Shown here: positions 32,421 to 39,638 of the stretch, one piece after another
How the letters are laid out: every line of letters starts with the position of its first letter
Numbering within the stretch: the first letter of the stretch is position 1
NCBI GenBank assembly: GCA_009840595.1
Contig: VXNK01000080.1
Location: forward strand, 108,280-172,279
Direction: 5' to 3'
Source: Rhodospirillaceae bacterium
GTDB taxonomy: Bacteria; Pseudomonadota; Alphaproteobacteria; Bin65
Length of the DNA stretch: 64,000 nucleotides
Notes under the pieces: model-generated
The model's database searches: none
What the model saw: only the letters and a program-made list of their open reading frames with translations
What the model was told of the DNA's origin: nothing
Program-made: the position numbers and the translations under genes

Positions 32421-32506
32421 CAAGCAGGCCTGTCAAGCGGATTCTCCGCGCCGGCCCGTCGTTTCACCGATTGACCGCACCGGCCCGCCGGGGCTATCGT
32501 CACGGC

Positions 32507-32812
32507 ATGACCTTCGCCCCGGACACCTATGCGATCATCGGCACGATCCTTGCCGTCGGCTTCGCCCTGGCCGGCATGGGCTGGCGCATGGCGAGCCGCC
32601 TCGACAAGCGGATCGGCGAAGACAGGGCCGCCGCCGAAGCCGACCGGCGCGCGGTGCAGGCCGCTGCCGACGCGGACCGGCGCGCCGCGCAGACCGCCGC
32701 CGACGCGGACCGGCGGCAATGGCAAGCGTCTATGGACGCCTTCCGGCAGGAAATGCTGCGCCTCGCCGAACGGCAGTCCCGCATCGAAGGCCGGATCGAA
32801 GCGGCCGAATAG
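32507..32812 (+). CDS. Small TM plus coiled-coil protein, copy 1
   Basis: MTFAPDTYAIIGTILAVGFALAGMGWRMASRLDKRIGEDRAAAEADRRAVQAAADADRRAAQTAADADRRQWQASMDAFRQEMLRLAERQSRIEGRIEAAE*. Confidence 0.7.
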   Translation: MTFAPDTYAIIGTILAVGFALAGMGWRMASRLDKRIGEDRAAAEADRRAVQAAADADRRAAQTAADADRRQWQASMDAFRQEMLRLAERQSRIEGRIEAAE

Positions 32813-32984
32813 CCGACGCCCGGCGCCGCTTCGCGGTGCGCCGCCTTTGGCCGACGGCGGAGCCGTCAAGGGATGCGGCGCCAAAGGCCCCTCGCGAAAG
32901 AAAATGCGGGACTCCTCCGGGCGGTGTGCCGGCCCGGCGTTTCACCGATTGACCTCACCGGTCCGCCGGGCCTATCGTTACAGC

Positions 32985-33257
32985 ATGACCTTCGCCCCGG
33001 ACACCTATGCGATCATCGGCACCATCCTTGCCGTCGGCTTCGCCCTGGCCGGCATGGGCTGGCGCATGGCGAGCCGCCTCGACAAGCGGATCGGCGAAGA
33101 CAGGGCCGCCGCCAATGCGGACCGTCGCGCCGCGCAAGCCGCCGCCGACGCGGACCGGCGGCAATGGCAGGCGTCCATGGATGCCTTCCGGCAGGAAATG
33201 CTGCGCCTCGCCGAACGGCAGTCCCGCATCGAAGGCCGGATCGAAGCGGCAGAGTGA
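32985..33257 (+). CDS. Small TM plus coiled-coil protein, copy 2 (tandem duplicate)
   Basis: Same protein minus an 11-residue coiled-coil segment; start offset 478 bp from copy 1. Confidence 0.7.
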   Translation: MTFAPDTYAIIGTILAVGFALAGMGWRMASRLDKRIGEDRAAANADRRAAQAAADADRRQWQASMDAFRQEMLRLAERQSRIEGRIEAAE

Positions 33258-33322
33258 TCGCCGCCCGGCGGCGTTTCGCGATGCGGCGCCTTTGGCCGGA
33301 TGTTCGTTTGGGACAACATCTT

Positions 33323-33988
33323 ATGGGCACCTCCGTCACCGACACGGTCGCCAAAGCCTTCGCACTGGCGCTTTCGGACCAGCGCGCGGTTCTTAAACGC
33401 TGGACCGGCCTCGCACGCGGAATCGGGACGCTCCTGCCGGATTCGCTGTTGTCGGCGTCCGTTTACCAGATCGGCACAGTCGACGTCCTGCTCCGGTCCC
33501 TGGAGAAAGAGCGGGAACCGCTCGTCTACGAGCAGGTCAAAAGCGACGAGGAAGTACGGCGCGAATTTCACTACCAGTGCATATTGTCGCAAAACTGGGT
33601 TTGCAGCGCATACGAAATATTCCGGCTCCTGAAGTCCCGGAAACTGGTTTCGGACAATCCCGAATTCGACGCTTTGGCGCACGATCTCCGGCTGCTGAGA
33701 ATCCCGTTCGACAAGCACCAGATCGCCGCCGACGGGGAGCTTCCCGGACCCATTGAATTCCGGTCGCCCCCCTCGCCGTTTCACGAAACGCAATATTACC
33801 TCTACGATCCGAACGATGCGCTTCGCGGCTACGATATGCTGCTGGGTGTTGCCGCCGACGGCTCCGTAATGTGGAACACGGTGGACGGCACGAACGGCGA
33901 AACGAAATGGCTGGTGCGCTCGGCATTGTCAGACAGGATCATCGCCGTTTTCGCGCCCCATTCGGAAAACGGCGGACCGGGGCGATAG
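33323..33988 (+). CDS. Hypothetical protein (221 aa)
   Basis: MGTSVTDTVAKAFALALSDQRAVLKRWTGLARGIGTLLPDSLLSASVYQIGTVDVLLRSLEKERE...; no recognised domain. Confidence 0.6.
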   Translation: MGTSVTDTVAKAFALALSDQRAVLKRWTGLARGIGTLLPDSLLSASVYQIGTVDVLLRSLEKEREPLVYEQVKSDEEVRREFHYQCILSQNWVCSAYEIFRLLKSRKLVSDNPEFDALAHDLRLLRIPFDKHQIAADGELPGPIEFRSPPSPFHETQYYLYDPNDALRGYDMLLGVAADGSVMWNTVDGTNGETKWLVRSALSDRIIAVFAPHSENGGPGR

Positions 33989-34256
33989 CTCCGCTCCGTT
34001 CCATACGCGGCCTGCACGGCGGACGCTAGCAGGCGGAGGCAACGCGGGCGGTTCGCTCGTCCACGGTCATATGGGGATTGCGCCCGCGGCAGCAACGAGT
34101 GAAGCGACGGAAAACCGACGCAGTGTGGCCTACTCTTTCCTCCCCGGCATTTCGACCGGAGCAGCAAGGTCGCGTAGTAGAGACTTTAGCCTAGGTTAGC
34201 GGCGATGACGGCCGGGAAATAAAGACTGCCTCCACCGTCAAGAATGGTCAACGCGA

Positions 34257-35195
34257 TCACTCTACTTGAGGACACTGAGACATGGCTTTAAGGCGGCTTC
34301 GAAACCTGGATTTTAGTTTCGGTTTGAGATCAAAAAGTCTTCCCTGAACACGTTCAATTTCAGAGAGGCGTCCCATCATTCGATGGTATGAAATGCGCAA
34401 ATCAATTTCCGATTCCGCTGCGTCAAATTCATCAATAGACTGACGAAGAGCCAAATGACGCGACCGTGGAGCTTTCGGGCCACGAGACGTTAACACTACC
34501 CCTGTAATGTTAGGACTCCGACCTCCATGACAATATCTCTGTTTTGATCGCTTTGGAACTAGGTTACAACGCTTGATAATGCAGCGGACTTCAGAACGAA
34601 AAGATTCAGAAATTGACGAACCTGAGAACGATATGTCATCTTGATATACCGTCATTGTCAAATTGTGTGACTGTGCCAATTCATAGAGGGCATCAAACAT
34701 TTCTTTGTGAGAAAGAAAAGCAAGAAGAGAACTCGTTGGGCTACCTGTTGGAATATGGCCTCGGTAGGTTAGTATGGTAGCCATTATTCCGGCAATATCT
34801 GAACTGCATTGAAATTGCCGGATAAAGCAGAGATAGACATGATGCCATGTGCAGGACGGGTAGAATTTAGCAATATCTACTTGAAAACTCTGAATTAGAC
34901 CAGAATGAGCTACAGCGTTGCTCAGATAGCTACGCTTTCGTTTTCCGGAATGTAGGTAGTTCGGCATCTGGATGCGCGAGAGCAGCTTCTGAACTCTATT
35001 GTGCACACGGCACATCGTCCGAATTGGCGTTTCAGTCTTCCGCTGTTTTCCATTACGTTCTGTAGTGCCTTCTTTGAATTGACCAGTAAGGTATTCGAGC
35101 CTGCGAAGTCGTCCAACACGCAATTGCAAGACCTCGGAAAGCCGGTGGATACTTGTGATCTTAAATAAAGGAGAATTTTCAATTTCGTATGGCAT
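34257..35195 (-). CDS. Retron-type reverse transcriptase
   Basis: 312 aa; NAxxH (NAVAH, codons 93-97, 34905-34919), FQVDIAKFYPS, IPTGSPTSS, catalytic YQDD (codons 184-187, 34635-34646), ITG (codons 230-232). Confidence 0.9.
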   Translation of the reverse strand: MPYEIENSPLFKITSIHRLSEVLQLRVGRLRRLEYLTGQFKEGTTERNGKQRKTETPIRTMCRVHNRVQKLLSRIQMPNYLHSGKRKRSYLSNAVAHSGLIQSFQVDIAKFYPSCTWHHVYLCFIRQFQCSSDIAGIMATILTYRGHIPTGSPTSSLLAFLSHKEMFDALYELAQSHNLTMTVYQDDISFSGSSISESFRSEVRCIIKRCNLVPKRSKQRYCHGGRSPNITGVVLTSRGPKAPRSRHLALRQSIDEFDAAESEIDLRISYHRMMGRLSEIERVQGRLFDLKPKLKSRFRSRLKAMSQCPQVE

Positions 35196-35474
35196 CTAGT
35201 CTTCCGCTATCCACTCAATGATCTTTGAAATTTTTCGGCGAATTGCTCGTTTGCGAGACCCGTTTGAAGTTTCAATACTCTCGGCGATTAAGTGGAACGA
35301 TGAAATTGGCATATTGAAGACGTTGCCGTAAGCTTGTAGAATATCTTGATGTATACGCTTTTTTCCGTTTTCGATCTCAGAAATATAGGACGGAGACAAG
35401 TTCACTTCAGCGGCGACCTCATTGACGCTCATCCGGTGGAACTTGCGCACATATCTTAAGGCATTATGTAGCAC
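35196..35474 (-). CDS. Small XRE-family HTH protein adjacent to the RT (start re-assigned to GTG)
   Basis: LRYVRKFHRMSVNEVAAEVNLSPSYISEIENGKKRIHQDILQAYGNVFNMPISSFHL; GTG at 35474 preceded by AGGGGA with 7-nt spacing; the ORF-track ATG at 35606 lies in the structured region. Confidence 0.8.
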   Translation of the reverse strand: MLHNALRYVRKFHRMSVNEVAAEVNLSPSYISEIENGKKRIHQDILQAYGNVFNMPISSFHLIAESIETSNGSRKRAIRRKISKIIEWIAED

Positions 35475-35509
35475 TAAATTTTCCCCTGGAAGGTAACTGG
35501 GGGGTCCGA

Positions 35510-35662
35510 TTAGCCTTCCAATCCTGCAAAAAGACGAAGAAGCAGAAGCAGAATTGTCAGAACGAAACGTCTGCGCAAAACGCGACGCTTCAACCATCGG
35601 AGCCACTGCGATAGGCCAGCTTTCGCTGACGACTTAGGGCAAACTGAGTTTTCGCTCTTCAT
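35510..35662 (-). CDS. Candidate 50-aa cationic/hydrophobic peptide (missed by ORF track)
   Basis: MKSENSVCPKSSAKAGLSQWLRWLKRRVLRRRFVLTILLLLLRLFAGLEG*; perfect GAAAGGAGG Shine-Dalgarno 8 nt upstream of ATG. Confidence 0.35.
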   Translation of the reverse strand: MKSENSVCPKSSAKAGLSQWLRWLKRRVLRRRFVLTILLLLLRLFAGLEG

Positions 35663-35748
35663 CGTCAGATCCTCCTTTCTCCCGCTTTCTGAAGCACCAT
35701 TGCCTCAGGCCACGAGCCTCGTATGAAAGGAGGGTCGTACTATCGCAG
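35606..35748 (-). ncRNA. Candidate retron msr-msd-like structured RNA
   Basis: Outer arms CTGCGATAG/CTATCGCAG (35740-35748 / 35606-35614) enclose stem CCTCCTTTC/GAAAGGAGG (35725-35733 / 35671-35679) and stem CTGACGA/TCGTCAG (35662-35668 / 35626-35632). Confidence 0.45.
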
Positions 35749-35763
35749 CTTTCCCCGTACCCT

Positions 35764-35794
35764 AGCCGCCAAGGCTGCCTCGTGCTTGGCGGCT
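35764..35794. other. Strong hairpin, 10-bp perfect stem (AGCCGCCAAG/CTTGGCGGCT), 11-nt loop
   Basis: Direct inspection. Confidence 0.8.
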
Positions 35795-35953
35795 CCACTC
35801 GGCGCGCGTGACCGGGTGACCGGGATGGCGTGTGCCGAGACAGTGGTGGGAGACACGCTCCCGCAGGGCCATTCGGCCCCAGTTTCAGACGAGGTTACGA
35901 GTCCTGCTGACTGCTGGTAGATAAGATCTTTGATGTAGGATACAAGGGGGAAG

Positions 35954-35970
35954 ATTCGCTATATGCGAAT
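35954..35970. promoter_or_regulatory. Operator-like palindrome ATTCGC-TATAT-GCGAAT
   Basis: 6-bp arms, upstream of the RT cassette, adjacent to the dnaE stop. Confidence 0.45.
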
Positions 35971-35997
35971 ATTTTGCTGTGCCTGTGGGTAGAGCAG

Positions 35998-39477
<3,480 letters not shown>

Positions 39478-39638
39478 GGGCGGTCCGGCGCGATGCAACG
39501 AATTCGGATGAGTGGCGGCGCAAGCCTACACCCATTCCTCGCGCCGCGCGCCGCCCGCGCGCATCGTCAGCGCAGATTCCGGGGGATTATTCGGTGGAAA
39601 AGCCGGGGTTAAGCTGGATTCCTCACAAGACTTGTCGC

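Follow-up and report, generated by a model that had tools for sequence, protein, structure and literature searches.

A type VI retron beside dnaE with a small hydrophobic peptide as its proposed effector

A reverse transcriptase (RT) gene and a small helix-turn-helix (HTH) gene lie together 3' of dnaE in the window, by which we mean the whole stretch of 64,000 nucleotides that was analyzed. An earlier note on this DNA had read the pair as a retron. Is this reading correct, and which part of the locus would act as the effector? Our analyses leave very little doubt that the locus is a type VI retron organized as one operon, which comprises an operator and promoter, the retron RNA, a small peptide gene, the HTH gene and the RT gene. 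New with respect to the earlier note are the gene for the small protein, the operator and the anatomy of the RNA in detail. On the minus strand, the order 3' of dnaE is a palindrome, a structured leader, a 50-aa ORF, the HTH gene and the 312-aa RT, with the following features:

35954..35970, no strand: candidate HTH site, palindromic operator ATTCGCatataGCGAAT (match to conserved TTCGCTnnnAGCGAA)
35918..35945, minus: candidate promoter TTGTAT-16-TATCTA, just 3' of the operator (weak; found by eye, by analogy with the TTGAC box of relatives)
35889..35894, minus: a1-like strand CCUCGU of a long-range stem (cognate versus non-cognate pairing test)
35865..35880, minus: stem-loop A, msr-like (tandem A-B at a constant spacing from the operator)
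35846..35864, minus: stem-loop B, msr-like (same tandem)
35764..35794, minus: strong hairpin D, msd candidate (window fold; many relatives have a strong hairpin at the corresponding position)
35725..35733, minus: anti-Shine-Dalgarno strand CCUCCUUUC (pairs with the small-ORF RBS)
35717..35722, minus: a2-like strand ACGAGG of the long-range stem, within the RBS hairpin (same pairing test as a1)
35671..35679, minus: Shine-Dalgarno GAAAGGAGG in front of the small ORF, forming the 3' arm of the hairpin (pairs with the anti-Shine-Dalgarno strand)
35510..35662, minus: gene for a 50-aa basic, hydrophobic peptide, proposed effector (conservation among loci, dN/dS, predicted helix)
35196..35474, minus: XRE/HTH_VI gene, proposed autorepressor (HTH_VI and Pfam HTH_3 matches, operator)
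34257..35195, minus: retron RT, type VI (PADLOC model, tree, fold)

The reverse transcriptase and its genomic setting

The RT ORF (34257-35195) contains every motif that the earlier note had ascribed to a 312-aa protein, namely NAVAH, IPTGSPTSS, YQDD and, within NITG, an ITG variant of VTG. Residues N93, A94, H97, D186, D187, T231 and G232 are invariant across 12 type VI RTs; the retron motif NAxxH is present as NAVAH and VTG as ITG, and the N, A, H, T and G of these motifs are all invariant. Using PADLOC models, the best match of the RT was RT_VI (E 4.6e-79), the next type reaching 4.1e-35. A profile built from 12 relatives was compared with the PDB, and it matched Ec86, Ec67, Kva2, Ec78 and other retron RTs (1.8e-38, versus 6.5e-7 for a maturase). 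The predicted RT structure (pLDDT 91.8) had retron RTs as structural matches at ranks 1-18; DGR and group II RTs were placed below these 18 chains, and AbiA at rank 50. By these profile values and fold ranks, the RT is not closest to group II intron RTs, to DGR RTs or to Abi RTs. In a quick tree of 75 RTs, the window RT fell inside an HTH-bearing clade, with the long-branch relative L080 outside it. The tree and HMM placement that the earlier note had called for therefore points to type VI, and the RT was not found in the group II, DGR, Abi or UG clades, which that note had named as the outcome that speaks against a retron. Taken together, the RT_VI and HTH_VI models, the profile, the fold and the tree uphold the retron reading.

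A single-RT query of genome contigs returned no relative; an alignment query succeeded. The nearest RT relative found is 36% identical at most, which makes the window retron a divergent representative of a known type. Membership of type VI is firm at the protein level, given the PADLOC models, PDB profile, fold, tree and this nearest identity. Like the type VI retrons defined by PADLOC RT_VI and HTH_VI and described in PMC8541194, the window locus has the RT and HTH models, the gene order, a small auxiliary protein and the retron RT motifs. The PADLOC models and that paper likewise bear out the pairing of an RT with a small HTH protein, which the earlier note had tentatively assigned to type VI. 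Compared with the type VI relatives found, the window locus differs in its RT (identity <=36%) and in its more strongly hydrophobic peptide. A search for a study of type VI retrons among open-licence papers found none.

By both profile and fold, the window RT is best matched by Retron-Eco1 (Ec86; structures 7v9x, 7v9u), which we take to be a type II retron. In contrast to the window locus, it is of a different retron type and has a different effector, and RT identity is about 23%.

The retron block occupies window positions 34257-35997 and abuts dnaE (35998-39498; matches Pfam DNA polymerase III alpha). The GC content of the RT and HTH genes is 43-48%, versus about 70% in the flanks, bearing out the earlier description of an AT-richer block. 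In two genomes of the same genus (G001, G002), DNA like window 31.0-33.29 kb directly adjoins dnaE and 33290-35998 is missing. Since the post-dnaE DNA of these genomes resumes at about 33290 or earlier, the segment of about 2.7 kb is an insertion relative to them. The post-dnaE site varies within the genus (L126, L127, L128, L130): two genomes are empty, a third relative has a VapBC-like pair (by inspection) and a fourth has unrelated DNA. A 222-aa ORF on the plus strand (33320-33988) lies inside the retron's insertion, convergent to the RT, and had no Pfam match. Beyond it, also on the plus strand, are near-identical tandem small genes (32471-32812 and about 32954-33257) that are rich in ADADRR repeats and encode an N-terminal hydrophobic segment; a Pfam search with the first copy gave no match.

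The retron is present as a single copy in the host genome. This lone copy, together with its absence from two same-genus genomes, could reflect a decayed or non-defensive retroelement whose genes are intact by chance and have no present function. We consider this very unlikely, as the three ORFs, the catalytic residues, the operator and the RNA elements are all intact, and patchy presence is normal among defence genes.

The HTH gene, its candidate operator and the small peptide gene

The earlier note had placed a small HTH gene directly upstream of the RT on the same strand. Its position and strand were confirmed, and the HTH stop codon directly adjoins the RT start codon; however, the extent of the listed ORF (35196-35606) proved too long. 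The HTH_VI model (2.4e-23) matches over nearly its full length from residue 46 of the listed ORF, and relatives begin there, which places the real gene at about 35196-35474, with a GTG start and 92 aa (Pfam HTH_3, 8.3e-10).

In 36 of 52 distinct loci, where shuffles predict 0.44, a palindrome, TTCGCTnnnAGCGAA, was found with <=2 mismatches at the promoter, upstream of the small ORF. It usually lies 260-390 nt 5' of the small ORF and in relatives often directly precedes a TTGAC box. The window copy (35955-35969) has one mismatch and is itself a perfect palindrome. In the window, a consensus promoter scan did not report the TTGTAT-16-TATCTA candidate that follows it. None of 18 HTH-less relatives carried the operator. 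Because the palindrome sits at the promoter in most loci and is missing from loci that lack the HTH, the HTH protein is probably an autorepressor. The host genome was also searched for further operator copies as a sign of a regulon, with no convincing excess.

The leader had been described previously as about 500 nt without conventional genes; it is not empty, as it contains the operator, structured RNA and the 50-aa ORF. This ORF encodes MKSENSVCPKSSAKAGLSQWLRWLKRRVLRRRFVLTILLLLLRLFAGLEG behind a strong RBS, AAAGGAGG. We gathered 67 loci in which an HTH relative is present, drawn from genomes, plasmids and phages as well as viral contigs, and nearly all have a small ORF just 5' of the HTH gene. 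Equivalence was defined as an ATG start, 45-68 aa, a net charge of at least +2, a hydrophobic segment and an end 20-70 nt before the HTH. Such an ORF was present in 44 of 48 distinct loci versus 1.8% of shuffles, a comparison that ignores kinship among loci. Three loci (L015, L016, L018), in which the HTH match is weak and the upstream ORF is a different one, were excluded from most counts; their RTs are RT_VI-like and the longer upstream ORF has a hydrophobic tail, and they possibly represent another variant.

Pairwise dN/dS of the small ORF was 0.2-0.5 in most pairs of relatives and near 1 in two very close Sphingomonas comparisons. On this basis, the ORF appears to be mostly under purifying selection. 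The peptide is nevertheless highly variable: no residue is invariant across relatives, some copies are amphipathic and not clearly transmembrane, and that of one distinct locus (L065) is slightly acidic. Many copies share a [KRN]PxT motif ahead of the helix, and the window peptide is predicted to form a single helix (residues 13-48, pLDDT 72). It matched no PADLOC family and no significant Pfam family.

Citing Mestre et al. 2020, PMC8541194 refers to "small auxiliary proteins" in type VI, and the 50-aa ORF with its strong RBS and widespread equivalents corresponds to such a protein. The same paper takes a different, larger ORF of phage MuM16-1 as the small auxiliary protein; the actual small ORF is likely at 2474-2620 of locus L043, where it is unannotated. 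Type VI retrons are present in P2-like and Mu-like prophages and in other viral contigs (L042, L043, L110, L117), in which the small ORF is unannotated or hypothetical where annotation exists.

A sister clade, mostly of Bacillota (L078, L083, L092, L098, L102), is RT_VI by PADLOC. Its RTs belong to the same family as that of the window, and the gene directly 5' of the RT likewise encodes a small hydrophobic protein. Unlike the window, the clade lacks the HTH and the operator, and its one-TM protein is longer (about 63-83 aa). L101 also has a retron-like RT_VI with a small membrane protein and no HTH. These HTH-less loci likely constitute an unrecognized subtype. Since they keep the small membrane protein, the feature common to the wider RT_VI family is the small hydrophobic protein and not the HTH.

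This comparison bears on two other accounts of the operon. The HTH protein could itself be the effector or signal output, for example as an msDNA-controlled regulator, with the peptide only a helper such as an RT or RNA chaperone. PADLOC defines type VI by its HTH partner, XRE proteins can act on chromosomal targets, and the host genome contains 15 other TTCGCnnnnnGCGAA sites. However, a reversed control has 9 such sites, barely fewer, and most of the 15 are without the AT-rich core. The operator is linked to the promoter of the operon itself, and close RT_VI relatives without the HTH retain the small membrane protein; we therefore regard this account as unlikely. Less probable still is that the small ORF serves the HTH and RT as a leader peptide or translational coupler. 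It does lie within the leader, its RBS looks regulated, and in nearly all loci it stops 26-66 nt short of the HTH. Yet its basic-plus-hydrophobic character is conserved, with dN/dS mostly <0.5, and its membrane-protein counterpart in the HTH-less clade argues for a working protein.

Structure of the leader RNA

The leader, from about 35 nt 3' of the operator up to the small ORF, folds more stably than expected, with a mean z of -3.5 over 39 loci versus -0.4 for a coding control. The window leader alone gave z -1.75 (20 shuffles), and a longer stretch gave z -2.65 (100 shuffles). In 30 of 38 loci, adjacent stem-loops A and B occur about 60-85 nt 3' of the operator at <=5% of shuffles; for the window tandem, 0/40 shuffles were as good. 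The arms vary between loci yet keep pairing. MAFFT alignments of this region (A2, A3) misaligned the arms, and structural tests were therefore performed by script instead of with a covariance model. An Rfam search of the locus gave no match.

A co-evolving long-range stem was also detected, between the strand that precedes stem-loop A and one located 40-70 nt 5' of the small ORF. Cognate pairs beat swapped ones (0/5000 permutations), with a p value that is optimistic because the segments were narrowed after inspection of the sequences. Tests of a1/a2 pairing by locus gave a weak signal, and RNAduplex with wide segments gave none (mean p 0.54).

In the window, the anti-RBS strand CCUCCUUUC adjoins the a2-like strand ACGAGG, and the small-ORF RBS is less accessible than in 100/100 shuffles. 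Accessibility fell in the lowest tenth of shuffles in 16 of 42 distinct loci, with about 4 expected, related loci not being independent; in several relatives the RBS is open. Given the strand order a1, anti-RBS, a2, RBS, the two pairings form a pseudoknot. No description of the operator and RBS hairpin of type VI retrons was found in the open-licence literature.

Proposed mode of action and its significance

In several retron types, the RT-msDNA complex keeps an effector inactive until it is disturbed by phage. By analogy with these systems, the peptide would be the effector here; its membrane action, its toxicity and RBS-based switching are predictions. We predict, with slightly better than even confidence, a type VI retron in which the peptide is the effector, acts on the membrane and is kept in check by both the repressor and the retron RNA. 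The HTH protein would bind the conserved palindrome and repress the operon, and the 5' RNA would serve both as the RT template for msDNA and as the leader of the peptide mRNA. In the window, the peptide RBS would be locked in a hairpin, the loop strand of which pairs in addition with the beginning of the retron RNA. As one basic, hydrophobic helix, the peptide would act at the membrane. Phage disturbance of the RT-RNA-msDNA complex or of the repressor would then allow the peptide to be made or released, and the infected cell would be halted.

Type I toxin-antitoxin systems, with peptides such as TisB and Hok, resemble this arrangement in having a small hydrophobic or amphipathic peptide and a structured, RBS-occluding leader RNA. 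In contrast to them, the RNA in the window is linked to a reverse transcriptase, and a cis anti-RBS strand is seen instead of a separate antisense RNA antitoxin. In canonical retron RNA, reverse transcription would start at the strand next to a2. A further, rather doubtful possibility is that type VI retron RNA is also a translational switch. In that case, the strand next to a2 would hide the effector RBS, RT binding or copying (or phage disturbance) would directly decide translation of the membrane-killing peptide, and the repressor would have been added later in one branch.

In conclusion, comparison of type VI loci points to a likely effector, to a likely binding site for the repressor and to an RNA switch in the HTH-partnered retron. 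If the RNA switch is true, such a retron would act via translation control, and not only via an effector protein held in a complex.
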